Positions 1,317-55,918 of a stretch of DNA of 59,840 bases are shown here, in pieces. The position numbers and the translations under genes were made by a program. Source of the DNA: Bacteroidota bacterium (GTDB lineage: Bacteria; Bacteroidota; Bacteroidia; Chitinophagales; Chitinophagaceae). Location of the stretch: the NCBI GenBank assembly GCA_028876495.1, contig JAGWRO010000014.1, forward strand, positions 1 through 59,840, given 5' to 3'. How positions within the stretch are numbered: position 1 is the first letter of the stretch; each line of letters starts with the position of its first letter. Under the pieces are notes generated by a model. It ran no database searches and was not told the DNA's origin. It saw nothing but the letters and a program-made list of their open reading frames with translations.

Positions 1317-1350
1317 AAAATAAATATTCGACTTATTTGTTGCTTTACTG
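1317..1350 (-). repeat. Dispersed 34-nt element, copy 1
   Basis: Read on the minus strand: head CAGTAAAGCAA, CA, nine variable bases, AA, tail TATTTATTTT. It starts 6 nt after the stop of the small exported-protein gene and reads back towards it. The head has G and C at the two variable positions 8-9, as in the copies at 16556 and 53863. Confidence 0.75.
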
Positions 1351-1534
1351 TTAACTAACTCCCCCGCTTTTTCTGAATTTTAATATTATCGCTAATTCTG
1401 ATATAAAAATATTGTATTTCTTTAAATTGAAATTTCAGCAAAAGTTAGAAAAGTTTTTTCTATATAAATTGATTGAATATTAATAAATTTGACCTGAACA
1501 AGGTCATCTATATTATTAAAAAAAATAATTAAAC

Positions 1535-1564
1535 TTGGAGAAGTTAGTTTTTCTCCTATTTTTG
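1535..1564 (+). promoter_or_regulatory. Consensus Bacteroidota promoter with no gene downstream
   Basis: TTG at 1535-1537, a 19-nt spacer, and TATTTTTG at 1557-1564, an exact fit to the TTG-N19-TAnnTTTG consensus. The only thing downstream on this strand before the convergent gene is the hairpin at 1592-1627, so any transcript would be about 50-60 nt. Confidence 0.6.
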
Positions 1565-1591
1565 CAACGGTGTTTTTCATAGGTTAGCAAC

Positions 1592-1627
1592 GGCCAGCCC
1601 TTTTTAGGGCAGGCCTTTATTTTTTAG
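1592..1627 (+). terminator. Intrinsic terminator
   Basis: GGCC, A, GCCC pairs with GGGC, A, GGCC across a 6-nt T/A loop (a single A-A mismatch in a stem of eight pairs), followed on the plus strand by TTTATTTTTT. It could end either the sigma-factor operon, about 280 nt after its last stop, or a short transcript from the promoter at 1535. Confidence 0.75.
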
Positions 1628-1637
1628 AAATAATTTT

Positions 1638-2375
1638 TTATTTAAATGTGAAGACTGGTTCTTTAATATCGTGGTAAAATAAAAAAGTCCATTTTTCCTT
1701 CTCGCCTGCCTTCCACCATTTTTGCCTTAGTTCCATTGATGCTGCTCCATCAAAATCATATTTTGCTTTAAAACGATTTTTCATTTGCTGCAATTGAGGT
1801 GCTACATCACCTCCAAAAAAAATAATTTCATCACCATCAACTATCTTAAAAACCTGATGAAACGGGCTATGAGCTCCGGTAACTTCATAAAAAATGTAAT
1901 CATCTATAACACCTTCATCTTCTGTAAAAACAACTTTCCCTGTTTTCCCGAGTAGTAAAAAATCATTTATATGATAAGACGGCAGCCCCTTTTTTAAGGC
2001 ATACTCCCATTCGTTTTTATTGATATAATAGGTGGCATTTTCAAAACTCACAATTCTTTTGTTAGTCTGGGTTATACCGCCTGAATGATCTTTATGAAGA
2101 TGCGAAAGAAGCACTTTGGTTACATCAGTGGCATTAATTCCGTTTGCTGCTAAATTTTTATGAATTTGTAATTGTCCTTCTTTATCTGCGTAACCGAGCC
2201 CGGTATCCAGTAACAAAATATCTTTTGAAGTAATAACTACAAAAGGCTGTATTTCTACTAAAAGGCTTCCTTTATTTCTACCCTGAAGGTCATCGTTTTG
2301 TTTATTAAAAGGAACAAATTTTTTTGTTTGATCAACCGTAAAAGCACCTTCGCTTAAGGGAATTATTTTAGACAT
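1638..2375 (-). CDS. Metallo-beta-lactamase-fold hydrolase
   Basis: A 245-residue soluble protein of the MBL superfamily. The metal-binding motif is seen as SHLHKDHSGG (H92, H94, D96, H97), preceded by LLLDTGLG, and a later GAHSPFH and FFGGDV supply the further histidine and aspartate ligands. Family members are zinc-dependent hydrolases with very diverse substrates (lactones, thioesters, phosphoesters), so the substrate cannot be told. No signal peptide, so it is probably cytoplasmic. A good promoter (2380-2409) ends only 4 nt before the ATG, so the mRNA may be leaderless. The gene lies downstream of rodA but has its own promoter. Confidence 0.85.
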   Translation of the reverse strand: MSKIIPLSEGAFTVDQTKKFVPFNKQNDDLQGRNKGSLLVEIQPFVVITSKDILLLDTGLGYADKEGQLQIHKNLAANGINATDVTKVLLSHLHKDHSGGITQTNKRIVSFENATYYINKNEWEYALKKGLPSYHINDFLLLGKTGKVVFTEDEGVIDDYIFYEVTGAHSPFHQVFKIVDGDEIIFFGGDVAPQLQQMKNRFKAKYDFDGAASMELRQKWWKAGEKEKWTFLFYHDIKEPVFTFK

Positions 2376-2379
2376 GATG

Positions 2380-2409
2380 CAAATTTCGTTTGGAATTACC
2401 CAAAAGCAA
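2380..2409 (-). promoter_or_regulatory. Promoter of the MBL-fold hydrolase gene
   Basis: On the minus strand TTG (2409-2407), 19-nt spacer, GAAATTTG (2387-2380), one base off the TAnnTTTG box. The box ends 4 nt before the ATG at 2375. Confidence 0.5.
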
Positions 2410-2417
2410 AAAAGTAT

Positions 2418-3764: not shown

Positions 3765-3794
3765 TAATTTTGTAAATAGATTTTAGTGAACTGA

Positions 3795-5912: not shown

Positions 5913-5971
5913 TCTTTGGGGTTGATTTTGAGATATAGGTAAGCAAATATTTCAGCACAAAAATACTTAGT

Positions 5972-8648: not shown

Positions 8649-8674
8649 ATTTACTGCAAAGAAATACAGTAAAT
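8649..8674. repeat. Inverted repeat ATTTACTG-N10-CAGTAAAT
   Basis: Perfect 8-bp arms at 8649-8656 and 8667-8674 with a 10-nt spacer, in the divergent mreB/AraC-MGMT region. The right arm is also the head of a 34-nt dispersed element. The arms are about 1.7 helical turns apart, plausible for a dimeric regulator. Confidence 0.6.
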
Positions 8675-8700
8675 CAACAAATTTAATTGATTTTTATTTT
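8667..8700 (+). repeat. Dispersed 34-nt element, copy 2
   Basis: CAGTAAATCAA, CA, nine variable bases, GA, TTTTTATTTT: a full-consensus tail. It reads towards the AraC-MGMT gene, 87 nt before its ATG, and lies upstream of the promoter box at 8757. Confidence 0.75.
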
Positions 8701-11054: not shown

Positions 11055-11088
11055 TATTTTAAAAATCAAGAAATTTATTTGTTTACTG
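11055..11088 (-). repeat. Dispersed 34-nt element, copy 3 (degenerate tail)
   Basis: CAGTAAACAAA head on the minus strand, then AT-rich sequence with the GA and T-run shifted by one base relative to other copies. It lies in the purD/POT divergent gap, reading towards purD. Confidence 0.55.
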
Positions 11089-11260
11089 TAAATCAAAAAA
11101 ATGAAAATCCTTCTTATTTGTTTTTTTACTGCAAAAAACTTTTGAAAGATTTGAGCAAAATTTTTAATGAAAAAAATAAACATAGTTTTAAATTTCTACT
11201 TACTTTACAACCTGATAAAAAATCTGTTCCCAATTTTTTTAACTCAAAATCAAAACAATT

Positions 11261-13021: not shown

Positions 13022-13035
13022 TTTATTCTAAAAAG

Positions 13036-16555: not shown

Positions 16556-16589
16556 AAAAGAGAAATTACGGTTAATTGTTGCTTTACTA
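16556..16589 (-). repeat. Dispersed 34-nt element, copy 4
   Basis: TAGTAAAGCAA, CA, nine variable bases, AA, TTTCTCTTTT on the minus strand. Its first three bases are the TAG stop codon of serS, so the element begins exactly at the end of that gene and reads away from it towards the DUF1800 gene. Confidence 0.7.
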
Positions 16590-17852
16590 AATCTTGCCGC
16601 CCCCAAAATAGGAATGCAAAATCTGCGGCAATAAAATTCCATCTTCTGCCTGGTTATTTTCAAGCAAAGCTGCTACAATTCGCGGAAGCGCTAAAGAAGA
16701 ACCATTTAACGAATGAACAAGTTGCGTTTTGCCATCCGCTTTAAAACGGATCTTCATACGATTAGTTTGAAACGCCTCAAAGTTGCTTACAGAGCTTACT
16801 TCAAGCCATTTTTCCTGCGCAGCGCTGTACACTTCAAAATCGTATGTAAGCGCAGATGTAAAACTCATATCGCCGCCGCACAAACGAAGAATTCTATATG
16901 GAAGGTTTAAGGATTGTAACAGTTTTTCAACATGCAAAAGCATTTCTTCAAGCACCTCGTAACTTTTATCGGGATGAACTAATTGAACGAGTTCTACTTT
17001 ATCAAATTGATGAACACGATTCAATCCGCGAACATCTTTTCCATAGCTTCCTGCTTCGCGACGAAAGCAAGGCGTGTAAGCAGTCATCTTCACAGGCAAT
17101 TCATCTTCTTTCAAAATTTCATCGCGATAAATATTGGTAAGAGGCACTTCCGCTGTCGGAATTAAAAATAAATTATCGGCAGTTGCATGGTACATCTGGC
17201 CTTCCTTATCGGGCAACTGTCCTGTGCCATAAGCGCTCGCTTCATTTACCATGAAAGGTGGTTCATATTCTGTGTAACCTGCTTCTGTATTAAAATCAAG
17301 AAAATAATGAATTAATGCGCGTTGCAATTTTGCCCCTTTGCCTTTATAAAAAGGAAAGCCTGCGCCGGTAACTTTATTTCCTATTTCAAAATTGATAAGG
17401 TCGTATTTTTTGGCAAGATCCCAATGCGCCAAAGCGCCTTTTGGAAGCGCAGGTTTTTCGCCGCCTTCTCTTACGATCTCATTTTCTTCTGGCGTTTTTC
17501 CTTCGGGAACTGAAGTGTGTGGAAGATTTGGCAATTTTATAAGATCGTCATGGAGCGACTTTTCAACAACGTTTAACTGTTCGCTCACTGGTTGCAGAAG
17601 GCCTTTCAAGCTGGCAACTTCCATTTTTTTTTCTTCAGCCAAACGTATTTCACCCTTTGCCATTAGCTGCCCGATCTCTTTGGAAAAAGTATTTATTTTC
17701 GATTGCCTTTCATCGAGTTCAAACTGCAACTTCTTTCTTTCATCGTCTAATGCTATAATATTATCAATCAATGAAGTTTCTAAAAAATTCTTTTTCTTAA
17801 GTCCTTTTAAAACTTCTTCCCTGTTTGCCTTTATAAAATTTACCTGTAACAT
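16587..17852 (-). CDS. serS: Seryl-tRNA synthetase
   Basis: A 421-residue class II aminoacyl-tRNA synthetase with the N-terminal coiled-coil tRNA-binding arm (about residues 25-105) and a catalytic core with the motif 2 region TPCFRREAGSYGKDVRGLNRVHQFDKVEL (read as two parts, FRREAG and RVHQF) and motif 3 LNGSSLALPRIVAALLENNQ. The frame stays open to 17996, but the family N-terminus MLQVNFIKANREEV begins at 17852, and a promoter box at 17873-17880 would lie inside the longer version. I therefore use the ATG at 17852. Confidence 0.97.
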   Translation of the reverse strand: MLQVNFIKANREEVLKGLKKKNFLETSLIDNIIALDDERKKLQFELDERQSKINTFSKEIGQLMAKGEIRLAEEKKMEVASLKGLLQPVSEQLNVVEKSLHDDLIKLPNLPHTSVPEGKTPEENEIVREGGEKPALPKGALAHWDLAKKYDLINFEIGNKVTGAGFPFYKGKGAKLQRALIHYFLDFNTEAGYTEYEPPFMVNEASAYGTGQLPDKEGQMYHATADNLFLIPTAEVPLTNIYRDEILKEDELPVKMTAYTPCFRREAGSYGKDVRGLNRVHQFDKVELVQLVHPDKSYEVLEEMLLHVEKLLQSLNLPYRILRLCGGDMSFTSALTYDFEVYSAAQEKWLEVSSVSNFEAFQTNRMKIRFKADGKTQLVHSLNGSSLALPRIVAALLENNQAEDGILLPQILHSYFGGGKI

Positions 17853-17872
17853 CTGCCTGTTATTATTTGTTG

Positions 17873-17880
17873 CAAATATA
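17873..17880 (-). promoter_or_regulatory. -7 promoter box of serS
   Basis: TATATTTG on the minus strand (exact TAnnTTTG), 20 nt before the serS ATG. It supports the shorter gene start. Confidence 0.55.
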
Positions 17881-18042
17881 ACAAGGTGCAAGGAGTTTGA
17901 ATGGGGAATAGTGAATGGAGATTGAGAAATGAAATTCAGTGAAAAAGTTGATAAAAACCCGGTTAAAAAAAAGAGGCGAGTGAGAGATTTTATCAAAAAA
18001 TTATATTCTTAAACTTCTAATCCATTTAACCAATTAACTTTT

Positions 18043-19545: not shown

Positions 19546-19959
19546 ATGGAAGGTAAAAAAATCCCTTTTAAATACTTTTTACCAGGCATTGCCTGGTTTT
19601 TTGTTGTGTGCATATTAACGCTCATGCCGGCTAAAGATGTTCCTCAAGTTGGATGGATGGATAACATCCCCAATTTTGACAAGTTGGTCCATGCAGGCTT
19701 ATTTGGCGGGCTTGCATTTTTATTTGCCTTGCCACTTTTAAAATCGCACTTTTCTCAAAAGCAAAAACTCAATTATTCGATAAGAATAAGCCTTGCCGCG
19801 ATTGTTTGGGGCATTACAATCGAATTTCTACAAAAATTTTATGTACCCAGCCGCGATTTCGACCTTCTGGATTGGGCGGCCGATATTGTTGGTGTAATTA
19901 TTGCTTTATGGCTTATAATCAGTATTTTAAACTACCTGAAAAAGAAAAATTTACAGTAA
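19546..19959 (+). CDS. VanZ-like membrane protein
   Basis: A 137-residue protein with four predicted membrane segments and the VanZ-family stretch IPNFDKLVHAGLFGGLAFLF, followed by EFLQKFYVPSRDFDLLDWAADIVG. VanZ of enterococci gives low-level teicoplanin resistance, but most family members are unconnected to glycopeptides and have no known role. It is the last gene of the 18055-19959 run. Its TAA stop lies inside the head of a 34-nt dispersed element. Confidence 0.85.
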   Translation: MEGKKIPFKYFLPGIAWFFVVCILTLMPAKDVPQVGWMDNIPNFDKLVHAGLFGGLAFLFALPLLKSHFSQKQKLNYSIRISLAAIVWGITIEFLQKFYVPSRDFDLLDWAADIVGVIIALWLIISILNYLKKKNLQ

Positions 19960-19987
19960 ACGAACTTTTAAAAAAGATTTCTGTTTT
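19954..19987 (+). repeat. Dispersed 34-nt element, copy 5
   Basis: CAGTAAACGAA, CT, nine variable bases, GA, TTTCTGTTTT. The head contains the TAA stop of the VanZ gene (19957-19959). It reads away from that gene towards the next unit. Confidence 0.7.
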
Positions 19988-24136: not shown

Positions 24137-25231
24137 ATGCGAATCGCAGTAAATGCCACCTCTTTAAAAAACAACCGTTATCAGATATTTTTAGAATTGG
24201 CAGCACTCCACCCGGAACATACTTTCCTGTTTTTTTTTGATAACGAAAAAAGGTTAACAGATTTCCCGGAAAATATAATTCCTGTTGTAATAACCCCACA
24301 GGCAACCAATTTATTAAAACGCCGTATTTGGTACCATCTTAAATTACCTGCAGTCTTTAAAAAAAATAAACCCGATATTTTTATTTCTGAAAGATTCATT
24401 TCCCTGAAAACAAAAGTGCCTCAAATATTGATGCAGCCTGATCTTACTTATATTCATCAACCGGCATTTATTGAAAAAAAAGAAATTGGTTTTTTTAAAA
24501 AAAATTCCAAAAAGTTTATTGAAACAGCGAATGAAATTGTTGTTAGCTCTTCTTCTTTAAAAAATGAAATCGTTAACCGGTTTAAAACCGACGATAAAAA
24601 AATAACGGTAATTTATCCTTCAATAAAAGAAGAGTTTGACGCGACGACTTATGAAGAAAGAGAAATAGCGAAAGAAAAGTATGCAGAAGGAAATGAATAT
24701 TTTATTTATAAAGGAATTATAAGTCCGCAACAAAATCTTACCAACTTGCTGAAAGCATTTTCTTTTTTTAAGAAACGGCAAAGAAGCAAAATGCAATTAA
24801 TTATAACAGGAGAACGCGGAGAAAAATATGACGAATTTGTTCGTTTACTGCAATCTTACCGATTTAGAAATGATGTAAAGCTTTTAGAAGAAGTTACGCC
24901 AAATGAAACTGAAAAAATTCTGGCTTCTGCTTATGCTTTTTTATATGTTCCCTTTTACGAAAGCGAGGGAGATGAAGTAATAGAAGCAATGCAATCAGGA
25001 GTCCCGTTGATTGTTTCTAATACCCAATTTTTAAAAGAATATTGTGCCGATTCCGCTTTATATGTTGAACCGGAAAAGATAAATGACATTTCTGAAAAAA
25101 TGATGTTGCTTTTTAAAGATGAGCAAAAAAGAAAAGAATTGATTGAAAACGGAAGAATACAAATAAAGAAATTTTCTGAAGCAAAAAATACAGATAGTTT
25201 ATTAAAGAGAATTGAAGAAACTGTAGTATAA
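24137..25231 (+). CDS. Glycosyltransferase, GT4-like
   Basis: A 364-residue GT-B fold glycosyltransferase. The C-terminal donor-binding half has YFIYKGIISPQQNLTNLLKAF, LIITGERGEKYDEF and FYESEGDEVIEAMQSGVPLIVS, which includes the E-x7-E pattern of group 1 enzymes. No membrane segment. The acceptor cannot be told, but a role in surface polysaccharide is likely. A copy of the 34-nt dispersed element lies inside its coding sequence (24817-24850) without breaking the frame. Confidence 0.88.
   Translation: MRIAVNATSLKNNRYQIFLELAALHPEHTFLFFFDNEKRLTDFPENIIPVVITPQATNLLKRRIWYHLKLPAVFKKNKPDIFISERFISLKTKVPQILMQPDLTYIHQPAFIEKKEIGFFKKNSKKFIETANEIVVSSSSLKNEIVNRFKTDDKKITVIYPSIKEEFDATTYEEREIAKEKYAEGNEYFIYKGIISPQQNLTNLLKAFSFFKKRQRSKMQLIITGERGEKYDEFVRLLQSYRFRNDVKLLEEVTPNETEKILASAYAFLYVPFYESEGDEVIEAMQSGVPLIVSNTQFLKEYCADSALYVEPEKINDISEKMMLLFKDEQKRKELIENGRIQIKKFSEAKNTDSLLKRIEETVV
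24817..24850 (-). repeat. Dispersed 34-nt element-like sequence inside a gene
   Basis: On the minus strand CAGTAAACGAA, CA, nine variable bases, TA, TTTTTCTCCG. The head is a perfect consensus and the spacing fits, but it lies in the glycosyltransferase coding sequence (encoding part of YDEFVRLLQ). It may be chance. Confidence 0.4.
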
Positions 25232-26658: not shown

Positions 26659-28173
26659 CTAAAATTTCGCACCCTCCCCTTTTTTAGGAATTGACGAAAG
26701 AATAAATTGCCTTAATTGTTCGTTTGCTGTAGCCCTGTCTTCTTTTCGCATATACACCATATGCCCGGTGCGCAGACCTTTCCATGTGATTCGATCTTTT
26801 AATTTTCCGCTGGGGTCCATTTGCCACAAACTATATTTCGCATTAAAAAAATCACAAGCGCCATCATAATATCCTGATTGAACCATTAGATGCAAAAATG
26901 GATTTTGTGCCATTGCCTGCCTGAGGTTGTCTCCCGTGTTGTTGTTCTTTTCATCCCACGGCCAAACATCACCAAACATGTTATACTTCAAATCTGTTTT
27001 ATAATGCAGTTCGTCCCGCATGTAAATGTTTATCGAAGGAGTAAAGGCGTGTAACCATGCCGTTAGTTCCGCATTATAATCAGGAGAGTTTCCTGCAGCT
27101 TCCTTATCAATTCCGCGATATCTTGAATCTAATCTTCCAATGGTATATCCTTTATCGCGCAATAATTCCTTCCAGAAAAAATTAGCAGGAATGATTAAAT
27201 TATGTTGTAAAATTACTTTTTGTGATAGGCCTGAATAACGTGACATTTTAGCGGCAATATCTTCTTTTTCTGCATCAGTTAAAGTGTTTCCTTTTGCCAA
27301 CGCAGGTATTAAATCGTTGATGGTAAAATTTTCAACTTCAGGAAGCATGTCTGTAAGATCTTTACTTTGCAAATCAGCAGCAAGTGCTTTATGATACCAG
27401 GCAGTAGCCGCAAAGTAAGGTAACATCAACGCTTCGCCAACAGGGCCATCACGCTTAATTCCTAAATCAGTAGGCGAGACAAGGATAACGCCATCCAGGT
27501 ACATCCAATCCTGGTTTTCCAACGCCAATGCAAGTCCTGAAACTCTTGTGGTACCATAGCTTTCACCAATTAAAAATTTGGGAGAAGCCCAACGGTTATT
27601 TCGTGTTACAAAAGTATTGATCCAATCTGCCAGGTATTTGATGTCTTCATTAACACCAAAAAATTTTGAACCGGGAACGTCTTCATTTATTTTTCTGGAA
27701 TACCCGGTATTTACCGGATCAACATAAACGATATCCGCAACATCCAAAATAGAATTCGGATTATCATGCAACCCATAAGGCTCAACCGGATACCCTTCAT
27801 CATCCACATTTAAAATTCTCGGACCGGTATACCCGATTTCCATCCATACAGAAGGCGTTCCCGGTCCTCCATTAAAAGAAATTACCAAAGGCCGTGACGC
27901 ACGATCTTTTACATCGCTTCTTTCATAATAGGTGTAAAAAACAGAGGCTATGGGTTTTCCGCTTTCGTCCCAAACAGGCAATGTGCCTGCCTTTGCGGTA
28001 TATGGAACCGTTTGACCATTTATAGTAATGGTGTTTTTAATGGTAACTGAAGAATCGACAATCACCATAGGATTAACCCCAGTATTTTGGTTGTCTTTTA
28101 CATCTGTTTTTTGTGCAAGCAGAGTAACATTAAAAGCAAATAAAAATAAGGCAATAGGAAGTAGTGTTTTCAT
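26659..28173 (-). CDS. Exported serine carboxypeptidase (peptidase family S10)
   Basis: A 504-residue protein with a signal peptide (MKTLLPIALFLFAFNVTLLA, cut before QKTD). The S10 marks are SFNGGPGTPSVWM (oxyanion region), LIGESYGTTR with the nucleophile serine, YYDGACDFFNAKYSLW with the aspartate and LRTGHMVYM with the histidine. It would remove C-terminal residues from peptides in the periplasm or outside the cell. It follows the GH3 gene on the same strand but is separated by 120 bp that include a dispersed element. Confidence 0.9.
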   Translation of the reverse strand: MKTLLPIALFLFAFNVTLLAQKTDVKDNQNTGVNPMVIVDSSVTIKNTITINGQTVPYTAKAGTLPVWDESGKPIASVFYTYYERSDVKDRASRPLVISFNGGPGTPSVWMEIGYTGPRILNVDDEGYPVEPYGLHDNPNSILDVADIVYVDPVNTGYSRKINEDVPGSKFFGVNEDIKYLADWINTFVTRNNRWASPKFLIGESYGTTRVSGLALALENQDWMYLDGVILVSPTDLGIKRDGPVGEALMLPYFAATAWYHKALAADLQSKDLTDMLPEVENFTINDLIPALAKGNTLTDAEKEDIAAKMSRYSGLSQKVILQHNLIIPANFFWKELLRDKGYTIGRLDSRYRGIDKEAAGNSPDYNAELTAWLHAFTPSINIYMRDELHYKTDLKYNMFGDVWPWDEKNNNTGDNLRQAMAQNPFLHLMVQSGYYDGACDFFNAKYSLWQMDPSGKLKDRITWKGLRTGHMVYMRKEDRATANEQLRQFILSSIPKKGEGAKF

Positions 28174-28266: not shown

Positions 28267-28300
28267 CAGTAAACGAACAAATAATGAATATTTTCATTTT
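28267..28300 (+). repeat. Dispersed 34-nt element, copy 6
   Basis: CAGTAAACGAA, CA, nine variable bases, TA, TTTTCATTTT. The tail overlaps the last codons of the GH3 gene on the opposite strand, and TTGC follows immediately. Confidence 0.75.
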
Positions 28301-34408: not shown

Positions 34409-35014
34409 TCAAACTATTTTTTTAGCCAGGTTTTCCTTTACTCCGCCAAACCATTCATCTTTTAAAATGCTCAAAACAATACTGTCTCGCCTTACATTCG
34501 AATCTCTCGTGGGCATGTGGTTTCTTAAAACACCTTCTACTTTGCAGCCGATAGATTTCATTGCCGCTATACTTCTTTCATTGCTGTTATCAGCCCGAAA
34601 TTCTACTCTTTCCATTCCCAAATCTTCAAAGGCAAAAGAAAGTAAAAGAAACTTGCAATGCCTGTTAAGGCCTGTCCGTTGAAATTTTTTACCATACCAT
34701 GTGTAACCCAATTGAAGGCTTTTAAAAGCCGGATTAATATCATAAAATCTTGTACTGCCGGTATATTCATTTGTTTGTTTATCAAAAACAATAAAAGGAT
34801 ATTCCTTGCCCGTCGTTCGGGCTTCAAGTGCTATTTCCATGTAATTGGCAAGGCCTTCTCCTCCGGCGGCTGTTATCAATGAATATTTCCAAAGCTCTGG
34901 TTCATTCAATGCCATTGGCAAAAGATTTTCATAATCTTCCAGTTTCAAAGGACGAAGCAACACGCGATCATCTTCTAAAATATATTCTTCGGTTGGATCA
35001 AATTCTACAGGCAT
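34409..35014 (-). CDS. GNAT-family N-acetyltransferase
   Basis: A 201-residue acetyltransferase of the RimJ/RimL-like group: LRPLKLEDYENLLPMA at the N-terminus, NPAFKSLQLGYTWYGKKFQRTGLNRHCKFLLLSFAFEDLG (in shorter parts YTWYGKKFQRTG and LLSFAFEDLGMERV) and ERSIAAMKSIGCKVEGVLR. It probably acetylates a protein N-terminus or a small amine. The frame is open from 35083, but the family N-terminus MPVEFDPTEEYILEDDRVLL starts at 35014, immediately after a dispersed 34-nt element. Confidence 0.88.
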   Translation of the reverse strand: MPVEFDPTEEYILEDDRVLLRPLKLEDYENLLPMALNEPELWKYSLITAAGGEGLANYMEIALEARTTGKEYPFIVFDKQTNEYTGSTRFYDINPAFKSLQLGYTWYGKKFQRTGLNRHCKFLLLSFAFEDLGMERVEFRADNSNERSIAAMKSIGCKVEGVLRNHMPTRDSNVRRDSIVLSILKDEWFGGVKENLAKKIV

Positions 35015-35048
35015 AAAATAAAAATCGATTAAGATTGTTCGTTTACTG
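35015..35048 (-). repeat. Dispersed 34-nt element, copy 7, abutting a start codon
   Basis: CAGTAAACGAA, CA, nine variable bases, GA, TTTTTATTTT on the minus strand, a full consensus. The next three bases are the ATG of the GNAT gene, with no base between. Confidence 0.8.
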
Positions 35049-35121
35049 GTTCTTTCCAAATAAAGATAATCACCTCTTTCCAATTTTATTTAATTTCAAT
35101 TCTTTTTTAAAAACAAAGTAT

Positions 35122-35679
35122 ATGGAGAAAGCAAAATCTTATTGTGAAGCAATCACCCACATGGATAAAATGAATGTTCACCGTATTTACCATGATAATT
35201 TTTACGGCTTCCCGATTGAAGATGACAATGAACTTTTTGGAAGATTGGTTTTGGAAATAAACCAGGCAGGATTAAGCTGGTCAACGATCTTAAACAAACA
35301 AGAAAACTTTAAAAAAGCTTATAAAGATTTCAACATAAAAAAAGTGGCTTCTTTCAAAGAGAAAGATTTTGAACGGCTGATGAATGATGCGGGAGTTATT
35401 CGTAATCGTTTAAAAATAAACGCCGCTATTGAAAACGCTAAAACCATTTTGCAGCTTAAAAAAGAATTTGGTTCATTTAAAAAATGGATAGAACATCATC
35501 ATCCGAAAACAAAAGAAGAATGGGTAAAAATTTTTAAAACACATTTTAAATTTACCGGCGGAGAAATTGTAAATGAATTTTTGATGAGCACCGGATACTT
35601 GTCCGGCGCTCACATTGAAAGTTGCCCGGTTTATAAAAAAGTGTTGAATGCAAAACCACCTTTTATTAGTAACAGTTAG
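35122..35679 (+). CDS. tag: DNA-3-methyladenine glycosylase I
   Basis: A 185-residue base-excision repair enzyme that removes 3-methyladenine. Family marks are YHDNFYGFPIEDDNELFGRLVLEINQAGLSW (notably the LEINQAGLSW part), NDAGVIRNRLKINAAIENA and STGYLSGAHIESCPVYKK. The frame is open from 35035, but the family start is the ATG at 35122. It is divergent from the GNAT gene and convergent with mazF. A 34-nt dispersed element begins right after its TAG stop. Confidence 0.93.
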   Translation: MEKAKSYCEAITHMDKMNVHRIYHDNFYGFPIEDDNELFGRLVLEINQAGLSWSTILNKQENFKKAYKDFNIKKVASFKEKDFERLMNDAGVIRNRLKINAAIENAKTILQLKKEFGSFKKWIEHHHPKTKEEWVKIFKTHFKFTGGEIVNEFLMSTGYLSGAHIESCPVYKKVLNAKPPFISNS

Positions 35680-35713
35680 CAGTAAACGAAGATTTATTGA
35701 GCTTTTTTATTTT
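35680..35713 (+). repeat. Dispersed 34-nt element, copy 8 (left flank of the mazEF pair)
   Basis: CAGTAAACGAA, GA, TTTATTGAG, CT, TTTTTATTTT. It starts directly after the tag stop codon. It matches the copy at 36434 at 30 of 34 positions, including the normally variable nine-base middle. Confidence 0.8.
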
Positions 35714-36433: not shown

Positions 36434-36467
36434 CAGTAAACGAATTTTTATTGAGGATTTTTATTTT
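36434..36467 (+). repeat. Dispersed 34-nt element, copy 9 (right flank of the mazEF pair)
   Basis: CAGTAAACGAA, TT, TTTATTGAG, GA, TTTTTATTTT. The tail overlaps the stop codon of uvrB on the other strand. With the copy at 35680 it forms direct repeats around the toxin-antitoxin pair. Confidence 0.8.
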
Positions 36468-38496
36468 ACCCTTTCATTTCCTTCAACTCTCCCTGCATCC
36501 TGAACATTTCATCTCGCAGTCTTGCCGCTTCCATAAAATCCATATCCTTAGCCGCTTTTTCCATCATGCGCTTTATTTGTGAAATGGCTTTTTCCATTTG
36601 AGGAATGGTTTTATACTCCACCTGTTCTTCTGCAGCGATGGTATTTAAATTATCATCAATTGCGTAAGGCGAATCGGTAGTTCCTTTTATATCCAGCACA
36701 GAAGTTTGTCCCATTATTTGTTCAATGGATTTCTTAATAGTCTTTGGTGTAATGTTGTGTTCAATATTATACTGAATTTGTTTTTCACGCCGGCGATCGG
36801 TTTCATCAATTGTTTTTTGCATACTCTCAGTAATCTTATCTGCATAAAAAATCACCAGCCCTTCCACATTACGGGCAGCCCTACCCGCAGTTTGTGTGAG
36901 CGATCTTTCATTGCGCAAAAAGCCTTCTTTATCGGCATCCAAAATGGCTACCAACGACACTTCCGGCAAATCCAAACCTTCACGCAACAGGTTTACGCCA
37001 ACCAATACATCAATTTCTCCCAAACGCAATTCGCGCAAAATTTCTATCCTGTCCAAAGTGTGTACTTCGCTATGAATATATTTGGATTTGATGTTGATGC
37101 GATGTAAATATTTATCCATTTCTTCCGCCATCCGCTTCGTCAAAGTAGTTACCAAAACTCGATCACCTTTGGTTACTCTTTTATCAATTTCATCCAGCAA
37201 ATCATCAATTTGGTTTACCGAAGGACGAATTTCTATCGGAGGATCTAACAAGCCTGTAGGCCTTACCACCTGCTCCACTACTATGCCTCCTGATTTTTCC
37301 AATTCATAATCGCCGGGCGTGGCACTTACATAAACCGTTTGATTCAACATGGATTCAAATTCATTAAAATTCAAAGGTCGGTTGTCCAAAGCTGAAGGCA
37401 AGCGAAATCCGTAATCCACTAAAATTAGTTTCCGCGAACGATCTCCGCCATACATGCCACTCACCTGTGGAATGGTTTGATGACTTTCATCTATAATGCA
37501 CAAAAAATCACTAGGGAAATAATCGAGCAGGCAAAACGGGCGCGTTCCGGGTTCTCTTCTGTCAAAAAACCTGGAATAATTTTCAACACCGTTGCAATAA
37601 CCCAGTTCACGGATCATTTCAACATCATAATTCACTCTTTCAGAAATGCGTTGAGCTTCAATATATTTTCCTGTTTCTTTAAAATATTCTGTTTGCCTTG
37701 CCGCTTCGTCTTGGATTTCATACAGAATTTGTTGCAGTTTATCTTTTGGTGCGATGTATAAATTAGCAGGAAAAATCGCCGCGTTATCTACTTTTGAAAT
37801 TCTTTTTCCTGAACTCAATTCCAGTGTCTCGATGCTTTCTATTTCATCACCAAAAAAAGTAATGCGGTAACCATTGTCCATGTAGGGAAGATTGATATCC
37901 ACTGTATCTCCTTTTACGCGAAAAGTGCCTCTTGCAAAATCGCCTTGTGTTCTCGAATACAAACTGTTTACCAAAGAATGTAAAAATCCCTGGCGGCTGA
38001 TAACCTGTCCTTCTTCAATACGCACGACACCTTCGGCAAAATCTTTTGGGTTACCGATTCCATAAATACAACTCACACTGGCGACTACAATTATATCTCT
38101 TCTGCCGGTTAACAATTGTGAAGTTGCCGCTAATCTTAATTTGTCTAATTCTTCATTGATGCTTAAATCTTTTTCGATGTACGTATCACTGACAGGCATA
38201 TACGCTTCCGGCTGATAATAGTCATAATACGAAACAAAATAGCCTACAGAATTATCGGGAAAGAATTGCCTGAACTCGCCATAGAGCTGGGCAACCAAAG
38301 TTTTATTATGTGTAAGAACCAACGTCGGCCGCTGCACATTCTGAATCACATTGGCCATGGTGAAGGTTTTACCGCTTCCGGTTACGCCCAGCAAAGTCTG
38401 GTATTTTTCACCTTCAAGAATGCCGCGCGTAAGCTGTTCGATCGCCTGCGGCTGATCTCCTGCGGGTTTATATGATGAATTGAGTTGAAAAGGCAT
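36466..38496 (-). CDS. uvrB: Excinuclease ABC subunit B
   Basis: A 676-residue helicase-like subunit of nucleotide excision repair. Walker A is GVTGSGKT (37-44); the damage-probing beta-hairpin has YYDYYQPEAYMP; helicase motifs include DESHQTIPQVSGMYGGDRSRK and GVNLLREGLDLPEVSLVAILDADKEG (in parts NLLREGLDLPEVSLV). The C-terminal UVR motif (AAKDMDFMEAARLRDEMF) binds UvrC. Full length. Confidence 0.99.
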   Translation of the reverse strand: MPFQLNSSYKPAGDQPQAIEQLTRGILEGEKYQTLLGVTGSGKTFTMANVIQNVQRPTLVLTHNKTLVAQLYGEFRQFFPDNSVGYFVSYYDYYQPEAYMPVSDTYIEKDLSINEELDKLRLAATSQLLTGRRDIIVVASVSCIYGIGNPKDFAEGVVRIEEGQVISRQGFLHSLVNSLYSRTQGDFARGTFRVKGDTVDINLPYMDNGYRITFFGDEIESIETLELSSGKRISKVDNAAIFPANLYIAPKDKLQQILYEIQDEAARQTEYFKETGKYIEAQRISERVNYDVEMIRELGYCNGVENYSRFFDRREPGTRPFCLLDYFPSDFLCIIDESHQTIPQVSGMYGGDRSRKLILVDYGFRLPSALDNRPLNFNEFESMLNQTVYVSATPGDYELEKSGGIVVEQVVRPTGLLDPPIEIRPSVNQIDDLLDEIDKRVTKGDRVLVTTLTKRMAEEMDKYLHRINIKSKYIHSEVHTLDRIEILRELRLGEIDVLVGVNLLREGLDLPEVSLVAILDADKEGFLRNERSLTQTAGRAARNVEGLVIFYADKITESMQKTIDETDRRREKQIQYNIEHNITPKTIKKSIEQIMGQTSVLDIKGTTDSPYAIDDNLNTIAAEEQVEYKTIPQMEKAISQIKRMMEKAAKDMDFMEAARLRDEMFRMQGELKEMKG

Positions 38497-39036: not shown

Positions 39037-39070
39037 AAAATACAAATCCGGATTATTTGTTTGTTTACTG
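39037..39070 (-). repeat. Dispersed 34-nt element, copy 10
   Basis: CAGTAAACAAA, CA, nine variable bases, GA, TTTGTATTTT on the minus strand, reading towards mgsA and ending 23 nt before its ATG. Confidence 0.75.
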
Positions 39071-42950: not shown

Positions 42951-42984
42951 AAAAGAAAAATCCTTTGTTTTTGTTGGTTTACTG
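42951..42984 (-). repeat. Dispersed 34-nt element, copy 11
   Basis: CAGTAAACCAA, CA, nine variable bases, GA, TTTTTCTTTT on the minus strand, in the divergent gap between the M28 peptidase gene and typA, reading towards the peptidase. Confidence 0.75.
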
Positions 42985-45057: not shown

Positions 45058-45090
45058 TAGTAACCCAACAAATATTGCGATTTCTTATTT
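45058..45090 (+). repeat. Dispersed 34-nt element, copy 12 (divergent, 1 nt shorter)
   Basis: TAGTAACCCAA, CA, eight variable bases, GA, then TTTCTTATTT. It fits the pattern with two head substitutions and one missing base in the middle. Confidence 0.5.
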
Positions 45091-45279
45091 TTCTGTTAAC
45101 AACCTGTGGTTTTAAAGCTTCTGCCTTCATTTGGAAACTGTAGTTCTTTCTACACCAAATGCTTTGCTGGCAAGCATTTGAAAATAAATAAAAGAAGTTG
45201 CCAATTGTAGAATCAACCTATATTTTATTTTATTTACAAACTTTTTAAAGATAATTTCAGCAGCATTTGCCTTGTAAAG

Positions 45280-51385: not shown

Positions 51386-51418
51386 GTTTGACTAAAAATA
51401 AAATCAACTGATAAACCG

Positions 51419-51452
51419 GGAATCGGGATCTTAATTATTTGTTTGTTTACCG
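51419..51452 (-). repeat. Dispersed 34-nt element, copy 13 (degenerate tail)
   Basis: CGGTAAACAAA, CA, nine variable bases, GA, then a GC-containing tail TCCCGATTCC on the minus strand. It lies between the convergent ends of gltD and the small unknown gene. Confidence 0.5.
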
Positions 51453-51467
51453 GTAGAAATTCGAATT

Positions 51468-51782
51468 TTATTCGACGTTTTTTACAGTTAGCTGAAATTT
51501 GGTATTTAGACTAACTTCAAAATTATGTTCATTCAGAATCTCCCGGGCAGAATCATCTTCCATGATAACCTGTGCAAGATGCATAGCGAGTGGAGAGCCG
51601 CTGATCACGTTCCCAACCTTACCATCAGTAAAATCTATCTTAAATTTGTACCCGGCTTTCCTTCCTGTTCCAGCTCTTTCAAAATCAATTCGGTTAAGGT
51701 CCAAAACCTGCTCGTCAGAAACAGACTTCTTCATTAATATCCTGATAATAGGTAAATATTTTTTCCAGATGTGATTGTACAT
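51468..51782 (-). CDS. Small conserved protein of unknown function
   Basis: A 104-residue soluble protein: KSVSDEQVLDLNRIDFERAG, GRKAGYKFKIDFTDGKVGNV, then an AMHLAQVIMEDDSAREIL helix and a short beta end. It contains no domain I recognise. It is convergent with gltD and has 545 bp of non-coding DNA upstream. The first Met is used here; a Met at residue 17 is an alternative. Confidence 0.65.
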   Translation of the reverse strand: MYNHIWKKYLPIIRILMKKSVSDEQVLDLNRIDFERAGTGRKAGYKFKIDFTDGKVGNVISGSPLAMHLAQVIMEDDSAREILNEHNFEVSLNTKFQLTVKNVE

Positions 51783-51986
51783 TTTTAAATAGAGAGTTTA
51801 ATTGAGAAGTGATACCAACATCCGGAGATCAGACGCCGTAAATATTGAATAAAATTTTACTGTTAAGTATATAAAATTAACGGAAATTTTTTATCATGAA
51901 AAAAATTTAAGTTTTTATAGCTGTTAATCATCCAAAAATCGGATACAAAAATGAATTAAAACAAAAAAGTTTTATAATTAGCATTT

Positions 51987-52013
51987 AAAAAAATCCCTCA
52001 CAAATGCGAGGGA
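51987..52013 (-). terminator. Minus-strand intrinsic terminator with no gene upstream
   Basis: On the minus strand TCCCTC pairs with GAGGGA around an 8-nt loop and is followed by a run of seven T. No minus-strand gene ends near here, so it would stop an unannotated transcript entering from the right, or be an attenuator far upstream of the gene at 51782. Confidence 0.5.
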
Positions 52014-52295
52014 CATCCTGATTAAAAACTACACACACTATATTTATTGAAGAATTATCGTAAGAATAATAAGAAAAAGAGTTTTTCAATATTATGTTCC
52101 TAAATTTCATTCTTTTTTTATTTTTATTTTTCGTTATTTAGCAGGTGGTGTATTTTAGTTATTAAATGGCTATAAGAACCTGCCAGGCGTATATTCGGTA
52201 TGAGATACTTGCAACAGGTGCGTTTTGAGTTAAGTAAAATAAGTCGACGAAAAAGCCATTCATAAATTTATGACGGGTGTCGATTAACAATTCAT

Positions 52296-52303
52296 TAAAT
52301 TTG
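52296..52303 (+). promoter_or_regulatory. -7 promoter box of the second GH3 gene
   Basis: TAAATTTG, exact TAnnTTTG, 24 nt before the ATG at 52328. Confidence 0.45.
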
Positions 52304-52327
52304 TTATTGTCAACAACTTTCTAAGGA

Positions 52328-53854
52328 ATGGCATTTATTGATATTAAATTTCCAAAATCATTATACCGGGCATTGCGTATTCCTGTAAGTTCTACCAAAA
52401 GGCAACAATTAAAAGTTTTACAAAAGTTATTAAAAAGAGCACGTTTTACTGAGTTTGGCCAAAAATATCTTTTCGATCAAATTCTCTTAAGTAAGCATCC
52501 GGGTAAGAATTTTCAAAAAGTTGTACCTACGTTTACTTACGAAAAAATATTTAAGGAATGGTGGGTTCGTGCACTCGAAGGTAAACCAGACGTATGTTGG
52601 CCGGGAACCATTAAATTTTTTGCACTCAGCAGCGGCACCAGCGAAGCTTCCAGTAAATATATTCCTATTACTAAAGAACTCATCAGAGCTAATACACTCA
52701 CCAGTTTCAGGCAATTAATCAGCCTCGCATCTTATAATAATGTACCTAAAAAGTACGTAGGCAAAGGCTGGCTGATGCTTGGTGGCAGCACCCATCTTCA
52801 AAAGACTGCAACCTATTATGCCGGCGATCTTAGTGGCATACAGGCTAAAAATATTCCTTTCTGGTTCCAGGGAATGTATAAACCGGGAAAGAAAATTGCC
52901 AGAGAAGTAGATTGGTCTAAAAAGTTGGATGAAATTGTGGAAAAAGCCCCTGAGTGGGATATTGCTTTTTTAGTGGGTGTTCCGGCCTGGGTTCAGCTAT
53001 GTATGGAAAAAGTGATTGAAAGATACCAACTCAATAATATTCATGAAATTTGGCCTAATCTCGCTTTTTATGTTCATGGAGGTGTAGCATTGGAACCTTA
53101 TAAAAAAGGCTTTAATAAACTTTTAGGCAAACCGATAACTTATATTGAAACTTACCTTGCCAGTGAGGGTTTTCTTGCCTATCAAAACCGACAAAATGCA
53201 AAAGGGATGAGGCTTGCGACGAATAATAATATCTTTTTTGAGTTTGTTCCTTTTGATCAAAACAATTTTGATATCGAGGGTAATATGGTTGAAAACCCTC
53301 AAACCTTTATGGCTCATGAAGTAGAAAAATGTAAGAACTATGCAATATTGATCAGCACCAATGCGGGAACCTGGCGTTACCTGATAGGCGATACTGTTCA
53401 GTTTGTAGATGTGGAAAAATCAGAGATCATTATTACTGGCCGCACCAAACATTTTTTAAGCCTGGTTGGCGAGCACTTAAGTGTAGACAATATGAATAAA
53501 GCGATAAACCTGGTAAGTGATGAATTAAATATTTCCATTGGGGAATTTACGGTTGCCGGAATTCCGTGTGGAGATTTTTTTGCACACCATTGGTTTATTG
53601 CTACAAATGATAAAGTAAATTCGGAAACGCTAAAGTTTCTACTCGATAAAAAATTAAAAGAATTGAACGATGATTATGAAGTAGAAAGAAATCATGCTTT
53701 AAAAGAAATTTTTGTAGATGTGTTAAGCGAAGAAACCTTTATGAGTTTTATGAGATTAAAAGGCAAAGTAGGTGGCCAACATAAATTTCCCCGCGTTTTA
53801 AAAGGTAAAATGCTTGATGAATGGCAAAAATTCCTAAAAGAAGTAAGAGCCTAA
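52328..53854 (+). CDS. GH3 auxin-responsive promoter family protein, paralogue 2
   Basis: A 508-residue member of the same family as the gene at 28294, with the ATP loop FFALSSGTSEASSKYIPIT, LAFYVHGGVALEPYKKGF, YIETYLASEGFLAYQ and ILISTNAGTWRYLIGDTVQF. The two proteins align along their whole length but differ clearly, so they are old paralogues rather than a recent copy. The reaction is expected to start with adenylation of an acid; substrate and product are unknown. It stands alone between a long non-coding stretch and a dispersed element. Confidence 0.9.
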   Translation: MAFIDIKFPKSLYRALRIPVSSTKRQQLKVLQKLLKRARFTEFGQKYLFDQILLSKHPGKNFQKVVPTFTYEKIFKEWWVRALEGKPDVCWPGTIKFFALSSGTSEASSKYIPITKELIRANTLTSFRQLISLASYNNVPKKYVGKGWLMLGGSTHLQKTATYYAGDLSGIQAKNIPFWFQGMYKPGKKIAREVDWSKKLDEIVEKAPEWDIAFLVGVPAWVQLCMEKVIERYQLNNIHEIWPNLAFYVHGGVALEPYKKGFNKLLGKPITYIETYLASEGFLAYQNRQNAKGMRLATNNNIFFEFVPFDQNNFDIEGNMVENPQTFMAHEVEKCKNYAILISTNAGTWRYLIGDTVQFVDVEKSEIIITGRTKHFLSLVGEHLSVDNMNKAINLVSDELNISIGEFTVAGIPCGDFFAHHWFIATNDKVNSETLKFLLDKKLKELNDDYEVERNHALKEIFVDVLSEETFMSFMRLKGKVGGQHKFPRVLKGKMLDEWQKFLKEVRA

Positions 53855-53862
53855 ATTTAAGG

Positions 53863-53896
53863 CAGTAAAGCAACTTTCTATCATTAATTTTATTTT
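53863..53896 (+). repeat. Dispersed 34-nt element, copy 14
   Basis: CAGTAAAGCAA, CT, nine variable bases, TA, ATTTTATTTT. It begins 8 nt after the stop of the second GH3 gene and reads towards the LysE gene. Confidence 0.7.
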
Positions 53897-53940
53897 TTTG
53901 TGTCTTATCTTAATTAAAAATATAAATTCCTTTTTTATAA

Positions 53941-54582
53941 ATGGTTGATGTTATTGAAGCAATACTAAAAGGAATAGCAATGGGATTATTGCTCGTGATA
54001 TCTGTAGGTCCTGTAATATTTACAATAATTAAACAAAGCATCAATAATGGTAAAGGAGGCGGTTTTAGTTTTGTGATTGGTGTTTGGATTAGCGATTTTT
54101 TATTGGTGGTTTTAAGTAATCTTTTTTCAGAGCTGGTAACTACAGTAATGGACTTCAAAATGCAGATTGGCATTGCCGGAAGTATTTTTTTGATGGGAAT
54201 GGGAATCTTTTATATTTTTTTTAAAAAAGTTCATATCCACCCTGAAGATGTTTCCATGCCAATGAAGACAAGCGACCATGCAAAAATTGTCTTGCAGGGC
54301 TTTTTGCTAAACACCTTAAATCCGGCAGTTATTGCTTTCTGGCTTACTGCCGCAACAGCCATCGCCGTTTCGCATAGTATCCGGGATCGCATTATTATTT
54401 TTGCTACTGCTCTTATTTTAAATATGTCGGCCGACGTTGCAAAAGTAACTCTGGCAGGTAAATTGCGTAAAAAATTAACGGTAAAAAACATTCGGTTGAT
54501 CAACAAAATTTCAGGATTAATACTGGTTATTTTTGGTACCGTATTGCTGTTTGGGGTTTTGTTTTTGGTAAGAAAAATCTAA
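53941..54582 (+). CDS. LysE-family amino-acid exporter
   Basis: A 213-residue membrane protein with about six segments. The N-terminal GIAMGLLLVISVGPVIFTII and the KGGGFSFVIGVWISDFLLVVLS stretch (read as GFSFVIGVWISDFLL) fit the LysE/RhtB superfamily, which exports amino acids or similar small molecules. The substrate is unknown. It opens a three-gene run with an unknown exported protein (4 nt later) and mtgA. Confidence 0.85.
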   Translation: MVDVIEAILKGIAMGLLLVISVGPVIFTIIKQSINNGKGGGFSFVIGVWISDFLLVVLSNLFSELVTTVMDFKMQIGIAGSIFLMGMGIFYIFFKKVHIHPEDVSMPMKTSDHAKIVLQGFLLNTLNPAVIAFWLTAATAIAVSHSIRDRIIIFATALILNMSADVAKVTLAGKLRKKLTVKNIRLINKISGLILVIFGTVLLFGVLFLVRKI

Positions 54583-54586
54583 TAAT

Positions 54587-55138
54587 ATGCGACTGATCTT
54601 TATTTTATCCGTTGCCTTTTTATACGCTACCTCCTGTGTGGCTCAAAATGATTTGATCATTCTAAAAAAGAACCATCGTACCATACAATCTTTCTTTCCC
54701 GGCAGTGAAATAAATTTTTCAACTAACGTTCGTTATTATGAAGGTCAGATCACCGATATCAAAAGGGATTCTGTTTTTATGGTTCAATACGATATCAGGC
54801 ATATATATTCCCCCAACCTTGGAGTTTTCGTTTTAGATACCGTATCAGAATACCATTTTGCGGTAAATTATAAAAACATCATTTCATTAGGTAAAAGCCA
54901 TAGCAATTTCGACTGGAATGCATCAGGTGCGGCACTTTTTGGAGGAGGCACCTTATTAACAACCGCCGGATTAATTACCTGGATCTTCGCTAAACCTAAC
55001 ACAAGATATTATGCAAGGCCGGCATTGGTAATTAGTTCGGCAGCGCTTGCAGCAATCGGTTATGTCCTTTTAAAATCAGGCAATAAGTCAATGAAGTTGG
55101 GAAAAAAATATACATTGCACTATATAAAACTGAAATAG
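54587..55138 (+). CDS. Exported protein of unknown function with two C-terminal hydrophobic segments
   Basis: A 183-residue protein with a signal peptide (LIFILSVAFLYATSCVA, cut before QNDL), a beta-rich middle (INFSTNVRYYEGQITDIKRD) and two hydrophobic segments near the C-terminus (about 113-133 and 143-161), so it may be membrane-inserted. I recognise no named family. It lies 4 nt after the LysE gene and 15 nt before mtgA. Confidence 0.75.
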   Translation: MRLIFILSVAFLYATSCVAQNDLIILKKNHRTIQSFFPGSEINFSTNVRYYEGQITDIKRDSVFMVQYDIRHIYSPNLGVFVLDTVSEYHFAVNYKNIISLGKSHSNFDWNASGAALFGGGTLLTTAGLITWIFAKPNTRYYARPALVISSAALAAIGYVLLKSGNKSMKLGKKYTLHYIKLK

Positions 55139-55153
55139 TAAAATTCTTTTTTC

Positions 55154-55867
55154 TTGGACAAAAAGCCCTACTTTAGAAAACGTGGTTTATTCAGAAGGCT
55201 TGGCCGGAGTTTCTTAAAAATCATTTTATATGGATTCCTTCTTTCCATCGTCTACATTCTTTTTTGCAAATGGATCAATCCTCCCGTTACGCTAACCCAG
55301 TTAAATAGCTTGATAACAGGGCACGGCCTTCATAGAAACTACATTAGCTATAACGAGATGGGATCAAATATTAAGTTGGCTGTAATGGCCGGAGAAGACC
55401 AATTATTTCCTGATCACAATGGCTTTGATTTTAAAAGTATCCAAAAAGCCATGAAACATAATCAAAAAAGCAAATCATTACGAGGCGCAAGCACCATCAG
55501 TCAACAGGTAGCCAAAAACGTCTTTCTTTGGCAACATGGAGGTTATTTTAGAAAAGGCCTGGAAGTGTATTTTACTTTTATGATTGAGCAATTATGGGGC
55601 AAAAAAAGAATCCTTCAAATGTATCTGAACGTGGCCCAAACAGGGCCCGGAGTTTTTGGTGTTGAAGCGGCTGCAAAATATTATTTTGATAAAGATGCTA
55701 AAAATCTGTCCCGTAAAGAAGCCGCAATGATCGCTTCCTGCCTTCCGAATCCCGTTTTATTTACCATCCATCCCATCTCCCGCCGTGTGGCTTACCGATA
55801 CCCCTGGATCATGCGCCAAATGAATAACCTGGAAGCAGATCCTGATATACAGGATCTTTTAAAGTAA
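55154..55867 (+). CDS. mtgA: Monofunctional peptidoglycan glycosyltransferase
   Basis: A 237-residue GT51 enzyme with an N-terminal membrane anchor (about 18-38). Family motifs are VMAGEDQLFPDHNGFD with the catalytic Glu, RGASTISQQVAKNVFLW, KRILQMYLNVAQTGPGVFGVE (read as ILQMYLNVAQTG) and RKEAAMIASCLPNP. It polymerises glycan strands without a transpeptidase domain. The start is TTG at 55154; no ATG exists before the anchor. Confidence 0.95.
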   Translation: MDKKPYFRKRGLFRRLGRSFLKIILYGFLLSIVYILFCKWINPPVTLTQLNSLITGHGLHRNYISYNEMGSNIKLAVMAGEDQLFPDHNGFDFKSIQKAMKHNQKSKSLRGASTISQQVAKNVFLWQHGGYFRKGLEVYFTFMIEQLWGKKRILQMYLNVAQTGPGVFGVEAAAKYYFDKDAKNLSRKEAAMIASCLPNPVLFTIHPISRRVAYRYPWIMRQMNNLEADPDIQDLLK

Positions 55868-55884
55868 AGCTAAAGGGAAGTTTA

Positions 55885-55918
55885 TAGTAAACAAACAAAA
55901 AATGATTATTTCCCTTTC
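55885..55918 (+). repeat. Dispersed 34-nt element, copy 15
   Basis: TAGTAAACAAA, CA, nine variable bases, TA, TTTCCCTTTC. It lies between the convergent ends of mtgA and the VCBS lipoprotein gene, with the tail overlapping the latter's stop codon. Confidence 0.65.

Follow-up and report, generated by a model that had tools for sequence, protein, structure and literature searches.

What kind of signal is a 34-nt sequence that recurs in one gap after another between the genes of a bacterial chromosome? The question is raised by contig JAGWRO010000014.1 of a Bacteroidota bacterium (C95 of the draft genome of 4.70 Mb called G000 here), of which a window of 59,840 bases with 37% GC was analysed. 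The original prediction, made from the letters of this window, described a bipartite element with a conserved head, a variable middle and a T-rich tail and listed 16 copies. All of them were found where it had placed them and on the strands it had given (its number for a minus-strand copy being the low coordinate), scoring between 21.8 and 40.8 bits, and two further window copies were found at 11098-11131(-) and 26696-26729(-). The answer tentatively preferred here is that the element may be a genome-wide self-DNA tag working like the uptake signal sequences (USS) of Haemophilus and the DNA uptake sequences (DUS) of Neisseria. A comparison of MreB showed that the nearest relatives are metagenome-assembled genomes labelled Chitinophagaceae, Chitinophagales or Bacteroidetes; among them, DAHXOZ010000002.1 (L031) comes closest, with 88% DNA identity across 18.5 kb.

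The element was defined with a scoring matrix trained on 860 kb of G000, window included. Its consensus, YAGTAAACnAAyAAATAnnnnnRATTTTTATTTT, carries 28.7 bits of information over 34 positions and begins with a core, YAGTAAACnAAy; two AT-rich tracts, AAATA and RATTTTTATTTT, come after it, their centres about 14 nt apart. In the stretches tested, nothing comparably conserved was found in the 100 nt on each side (maximum 0.044 bit). Scanning of 1,211,597 bases of G000 (26% of the genome), with the same DNA reversed as control, yielded 315 sites of at least 20 bits against none in the control, and 372 sites of at least 12.5 bits against 11. The excess over chance that had been roughly estimated from the window is thus borne out, and extrapolation of the 315 sites suggests about 1,200 strong copies per 4.7-Mb genome. 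The constant spacing between head and tail also held: the offset was identical in 58 of 62 head-plus-tail pairs (control 0), and the fixed-spacing pattern AGTAAA-N15-GATTTTTATTTT, with at most one mismatch, had 268 matches in the whole genome and 0 in the control. When sites were picked by the remaining positions, the 8-nt head core was perfect in 163 cases and carried a single mismatch in 73. The consensus contains neither the palindrome nor the terminal inverted repeats of a miniature inverted-repeat transposable element (MITE) or repetitive extragenic palindrome (REP). In a sample of 80 of the 315 copies, RNAalifold predicted no pairs on either strand, and likewise none in shuffled controls; with no consensus pairs and a variable middle, the GC-rich hairpin plus U run of an intrinsic terminator is missing. 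The window had no match in Rfam at the gathering threshold, and the exact consensus pattern had 0 matches in viral contigs.

A high copy number and the restriction to one clade described below are what a miniature mobile repeat could leave behind if a transposase had spread it and its copies were now in decay, and a high-copy repeat was among the options of the original prediction. The comparison of orthologous gaps that the same prediction had proposed bears on this directly. About 172 kb of G000 were aligned to an 88%-identical sister genome, G161, where 36 of the 41 copies scoring at least 20 bits in G000 have counterparts of at least 20 bits and 31 of the 32 strong copies (at least 25 bits) are kept. 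In 27 gap-free pairs, changes affected 33 of 621 informative positions (5.3%) and 35 of 162 spacer-type positions (21.6%), with a divergence of the flanks, coding sequence included, of about 12.5%; copies were ascertained on G000, which somewhat favours conservation in these figures. The five copies below 20 bits in G161 are the window copy at 11055, decayed with a 21-nt deletion; C27 11943, altered by substitutions and small indels; C9 15653 and C27 171799, both genic and with substitutions; and C24 219247, which borders a copy-free stretch and whose sister gap is longer and rearranged. No copy had been gained or lost whole in the 41 comparisons, with at most 16 of the 34 positions deleted, a count that large deletions could escape by breaking the sister alignments. 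An anchor-based comparison gave 18 intact, 2 degraded and 5 absent copies and 1 elsewhere in G161 (n=26), 4 intact, 1 degraded, 1 absent and 1 elsewhere in G160 (n=7) and 1/1 intact in G156, against 0/3 intact in G163 and 0/2 in G150, two genomes of the same genus that lack the element; several of the "absent" rows reflect alignments that are poor or run to a paralogue, and at C27 172367 the copy lacks one base. In one of five such non-carrier comparisons (G163 at C27 16228) the gap is 32 nt shorter, as a mobile repeat would explain, but the difference is not specific, since in the remaining four the gap length is off by +17, +62, -25 and -77 nt.

The copies inside genes give a second view of their origin. 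Among 56 copies in open frames of at least 180 aa, five are covered by a homologue from a non-carrier. The three with homologues of at least 47% identity align without gaps, one of them being the window copy at 24817, whose encoded peptide shares 48% identity with the non-carrier homologue; of the remaining two, with homologues at 24-27% identity, one alignment is gapped and one mixed. A gap-free alignment argues for substitution, and in this small sample genic copies appear to have been made by substitution and not by insertion. Like REP and MITE-type repeats, the element is high-copy and mostly intergenic; unlike them, it is non-palindromic, constrained and evenly spaced, and no whole copy was lost in the sister comparisons. 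As far as sequence comparison can tell, the element is under selection and not a fresh mobile repeat. The purifying constraint with a free spacer, together with the repulsion between copies described below, makes a mobile repeat highly improbable. The preference of the original prediction for a two-part protein-binding site over transposon remains finds support in the fixed spacing, with both parts constrained and the spacer free, and in the lack of any whole-copy absence from the 41 sister comparisons, features that probably mark such a site.

How the copies are placed relative to genes was assessed with a simple, codon-usage based gene model (1,089 genes, 87.6% coding, 1080 gaps). Of the 315 copies, 243 are intergenic, 21 lie over a gene end and 51 inside genes (37 confidently); a matrix scan, the kind of check that had been suggested, here over 26% of the genome, finds them mostly in non-coding DNA. 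The claims that intergenic copies lie only at boundaries between transcription units, none within an operon, and that a single window copy is genic need amendment. With transcription units deduced from the length of gaps and the direction of genes, the former is a strong tendency, but of 421 tandem gaps shorter than 80 nt, 15 do hold a copy; as to the latter, the copy at 24817 is genic but so is the one at 26696-26729, which had been missed. Occupancy rises to 27/123 in tandem gaps of 80-120 nt and 98/239 in those of at least 120 nt. It is 44/64 in convergent gaps of 50-180 nt, and 3/68 and 28/79 in divergent gaps below 180 nt and of at least 180 nt, respectively; only 13 of the 1080 gaps hold two copies. 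Orientation is random: in tandem gaps 77 copies have the same and 68 the opposite orientation, and neighbouring copies are alike in 105 of 205 pairs. A replication-polar motif of the KOPS or Chi type was rejected on account of this random alternation.

That the element points either way at random and also occurs in divergent gaps and inside genes argues against a promoter or a simple terminator. An alternative sigma factor promoter had been named in the original prediction, and a few window copies do lie upstream of genes (35015, 39037); however, promoters would not be expected to point at random, to show no preferred distance to a start, to have only 28 of 211 flanking start codons within 40 nt and to lack any additional conserved block within 100 nt, and this explanation is barely credible. 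Stop codons behave differently, 204 of 309 flanking ones lying within 40 nt of a copy, and the hugging of stops holds in long gaps. This pattern and the occupancy of convergent gaps of 50-180 nt are what an orientation-independent 3′-end element would produce, either a roadblock formed by a bound protein or a terminator acting in both directions, placed where transcription units end. Hairpin terminators fit it partly: in convergent gaps of 40-120 nt the fraction of ends that have one is 0.14 where a copy is present (n=44) and 0.28 where it is not (n=32), a weak test, but in the other gap classes the frequencies are about equal, 0.11-0.43 with and 0.15-0.50 without, in small samples. The occupied divergent gaps of at least 180 nt, however, contain no gene 3′ end, 37 copies lie deep in genes, the lack of predicted pairs in the 80 sampled copies (shared by their shuffled controls) gives a terminator structure no support, and a 3′-end element would give neighbouring unit ends no reason to repel each other. 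Of the factor-dependent 3′-end signal that had been proposed, the closeness to stops has stood, but its arbitrary direction, its presence in divergent gaps and genes, and the repulsion speak against it; the explanation is improbable and comes next after the chromosome-organising site considered below.

The repulsion emerged from the distances between copies. The coefficient of variation (CV) of inter-copy spacing is 0.71, against 0.92 ± 0.05 in shuffles that reassign counts among gaps matched for type and length, and 0 of 1000 shuffles were as low. When only the 442 boundary-like gaps were considered, the CV was beaten by 0/1000 shuffles and the share of short distances by 2/1000. In a distance test on 414 of these 442 gaps (28 being dropped as near contig ends or more than 9 kb from any copy), the median distance to the nearest other copy was 2,506 nt for the 194 occupied gaps and 1,368 nt for the 220 empty ones (p=5.5e-13), and the effect was seen in convergent (p=0.00016), tandem (9e-8) and divergent (0.0017) gaps. 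Since empty gaps are closer to copies, a gap tends to be empty near an existing copy. Such mutual repulsion fits a signal that is needed once per few kb, not a terminator or promoter that each transcription unit needs.

Some parts of the genome are devoid of the element. The longest stretches without a copy of at least 20 bits in the first 860 kb are C78 20-60 kb, which runs to the end of the sampled part, C24 112-135 kb and C24 219-241 kb. TraG-type or coupling-protein conjugation genes occur in each of these three, in which 10 proteins were examined in all; other long copy-free stretches on C24, of 18 and 15 kb, are outside this result, which covers the three longest. Because of the conjugation genes, the three stretches look horizontally acquired, at least partly. 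The C78 stretch also holds, alongside its conjugation genes, a 1,352-aa open reading frame (ORF) at L149:6009-10067 (C78, about 26-30 kb) that combines an AcrB-type RND pump with an HlyD/CusB membrane-fusion part, as well as an ORF at L149:391-1497 with an SCO4226-like domain and an AraC-type helix-turn-helix.

Beyond G000, the element is confined to a small group. In a scan of 147 genomes of the family, G000 included, with the fixed-spacing pattern and at most one mismatch, G000 had 268 matches and every other genome at most 4; among 396 genomes of the order, a stricter, exact pattern matched G000 and no other, the remaining carriers being outside that sample. Within the genus, 5 of the 20 genomes carry the element in large numbers, with counts at up to two mismatches of 628 (G000), 540 (G161), 404 (G156), 245 (G160) and 185 (G155). 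The 15 non-carriers have 0-24 matches, most of them equal to controls and three mildly raised (G159, 24 against 10 in the control; G163, 21 against 9; G158, 17 against 8). In a PBP2 tree of 19 genomes of the genus, which leaves out G147 (distant paralogue only) and includes some partial rows, the five carriers form one clade with support 96/94. Sampled densities per 100 kb are 22.1 in G161, 24.1 in G160 and 24.9 in G156 (control hits 0, 1 and 0), against 0 copies in 200 kb each of the non-carriers G163 and G150. A k-mer candidate from G150 for a second dialect of the element was rejected, as it is partly an unrelated REP-like palindrome. This palindrome, TTTTGCAGTAGCC...GGCTACTGCAAAA, occurs in several copies on C13 of G150 (loci L219-L228, for example C13 64799, 70803 and 189617).

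A rigidly spaced, 34-bp bipartite site with AT-tracts, under constraint, randomly oriented, evenly spaced and with repulsion between copies, would also suit a clade-specific chromosome-organising protein, an IHF-like bender or loop anchor bound every few kb. Sites for IHF span about 35 bp, in which an A-tract flanks one half and the other half holds the consensus; IHF and HU sites thus resemble the element in being footprint-sized, bipartite and AT-rich, but the IHF consensus differs from it. The number of HU/IHF-family genes, moreover, does not follow the element, being 2-3 per carrier against 1-4 per non-carrier, and gain of an HU-family gene as its cause was rejected because carriers are no different from non-carriers. 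No candidate protein is at hand, and both the absence from the conjugation stretches and the sharp onset in one clade need an extra assumption. The boundary or nucleoid-protein site of the original prediction is thus a live rival, the chief one, although a rather unlikely one; if it were correct, the sites would be unusually dense, long and regularly spaced for bacteria.

The best-characterised uptake sequences belong to two proteobacterial families, and ComP, named below as a DUS receptor, is a pilin. If the element were a self-DNA tag, a clade-specific DNA receptor would read the 34-bp site through its rigid core and the two AT-rich tracts that follow, and biased uptake and recombination of copy-bearing fragments would keep the copies sharp. 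A second copy nearby would bring no gain, which would explain the even spacing, and copies would settle where they do least harm, just past stops, off promoters and sometimes within genes in tolerated frames. We infer a protein reader that may have its place in a DNA-uptake system, and copies that drive, rather than ordinary selection, may maintain. Such a tag, which was not among the options of the original prediction, suits the genome-wide pattern best. Features listed for both USS and DUS are the lack of an orientation bias, spacing more regular than random, a preference for non-coding DNA with many coding copies, and more perfect copies than copies with a single mismatch (Redfield et al., 2006, PMC1626085). 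The element resembles USS of Haemophilus and other Pasteurellaceae in being numerous, oriented at random and regularly spaced, in its preference for non-coding DNA, in genic copies made by substitution, and in a sharp core followed by two AT-rich 3′ motifs, the second mostly T; the motif centres are 12 nt apart in USS and about 14 nt here (PMC1626085). With DUS of the Neisseriaceae it shares clade specificity, a permissive placement in the core genome and a tie to gene ends (Frye et al., 2013, PMC3630211).

Several observations weigh against a self-DNA tag. The core of the element is unrelated to that of USS and AT-rich, the site of 34 nt is longer than the USS core, and at about one per 4 kb it is some four times sparser than USS, of which there is about one per kb; 65% of USS in Haemophilus influenzae are genic, unlike the mostly non-coding element (PMC1626085). 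DUS differ in being 10 nt long, with no flanking motifs (PMC1626085), and often form inverted pairs at terminators (PMC3630211), whereas pairs of the element are rare and folding predicts no hairpin. In Neisseria and Haemophilus, DNA uptake runs via type IV pili (PMC7965970), and the DUS receptor ComP is part of the pilus system (PMC3630211), a system not detected here: the type IV pilus and type II secretion ATPase, PF00437, was above cut-off in 0 of 20 genomes of the genus, with weak sub-threshold matches in 18 of them. Genes for DNA import and processing, which speak for uptake, are present, ComEC in 4/5 carriers (the miss is a genome 72% complete) and DprA in 5/5, but each also occurs in 14/15 non-carriers, which leaves the restriction to one clade unexplained. 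DUF5689, associated with uptake in Riemerella, occurs in 0/5 carriers and 1/15 non-carriers. No receptor was found, none having been sought by genome comparison, and a k-mer search in two non-carriers (200 kb each) revealed no comparable dialect. The distance of genic copies to other copies does not differ significantly from that of random genic positions (a trend, p=0.2), and the preference for stop codons persists in tandem gaps of at least 200 nt, where 25 of 53 copies lie in the first fifth, a result that a 3′-end function would also give.

A sharp, constrained and evenly spaced element that lies mostly outside genes, is confined to one clade and is missing from the three stretches with conjugation genes has the pattern of a self-DNA tag, and it matches an uptake sequence in the sequence features tested, save that the usual uptake pilus was not detected; membership among the uptake sequences is not claimed. 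With somewhat more reserve than for a self-DNA tag as such, it is possible that the element represents the first DNA-uptake-sequence system in Bacteroidota, with an unfamiliar receptor and no detectable type IV pilus, arisen once in one genus. Uptake in this phylum can depend on other components, as transformation of Riemerella requires ComEC, DprA, ComF and RecA together with four proteins unlike known machinery (PMC8459023). Riemerella columbina was reported to prefer its own DNA, which at equal amounts was the sole competitor of its donor DNA, and AT-rich k-mers have been put forward as uptake candidates; this self-DNA preference in Bacteroidota is so far without a confirmed motif (PMC7965970). 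Among the matches listed by a literature search, with subscription papers and preprints outside its coverage, none described an element of this type or confirmed an uptake motif for Bacteroidota. A self-DNA tag, if real, would be a young third case of an uptake code, and one with near relatives that lack it, so that a comparison between carriers and the non-carriers closest to them could lead to the receptor and to the birth of the code.

Within the window, the copies cover the range of these situations. Convergent gaps hold the copies at 1317..1350(-), with 36.2 bits and kept in the sister (36.8); 35680..35713(+), 32.6 bits, which adjoins the stop of 35035-35679(+); 51419..51452(-), 23.3 bits with an eroded tail; and 55885..55918(+), 30.2 bits, overlapping the end of 55906-57492(-). 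The copy at 8667..8700(+), 36.0 bits, lies in the divergent gap between mreB and an ada-like gene (sister copy 32.2), and another at 42951..42984(-), 37.9 bits, is also in a divergent gap. A third divergent gap holds the weaker copy at 11055..11088(-), 24.6 bits, whose sister copy carries substitutions besides its deletion; in tandem with it stands the added copy at 11098..11131(-), 37.3 bits, kept in the sister (35.9). Copies in tandem gaps are those at 16556..16589(-), 30.5 bits and kept in the sister (29.5), the first three bases of which, TAG, are the stop codon of 16587-17996(-); 19954..19987(+), 35.4 bits, with TAA in the head serving as stop codon of 19546-19959(+); 28267..28300(+), 38.4 bits, with its tail over the stop of 28294-29811(-); 36434..36467(+), 34.2 bits, with its tail 2 nt into the end of the uvrB-like gene 36466-38496(-); 39037..39070(-), 40.8 bits; and 45058..45091(+), 31.3 bits. 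The copy at 35015..35048(-), 29.2 bits, has a tail that stops immediately before an ATG in frame with the GNAT acetyltransferase ORF 34409-35083(-), and that at 53863..53896(+), 21.8 bits, lies downstream of the stop of 52328-53854(+). The products of the latter gene and of 28294-29811 are two GH3-family proteins. Of the genic copies, 24817..24850(-), 27.1 bits, is within the glycosyltransferase gene 24137-25231(+), and the added one at 26696..26729(-), 29.8 bits, within the Peptidase_S10-like (serine-carboxypeptidase-like) gene 26659-28173(-). Elsewhere in G000, a single gene of 1,249 codons (C26 121430-125176) carries three genic copies, at 122017, 122301 and 124861.

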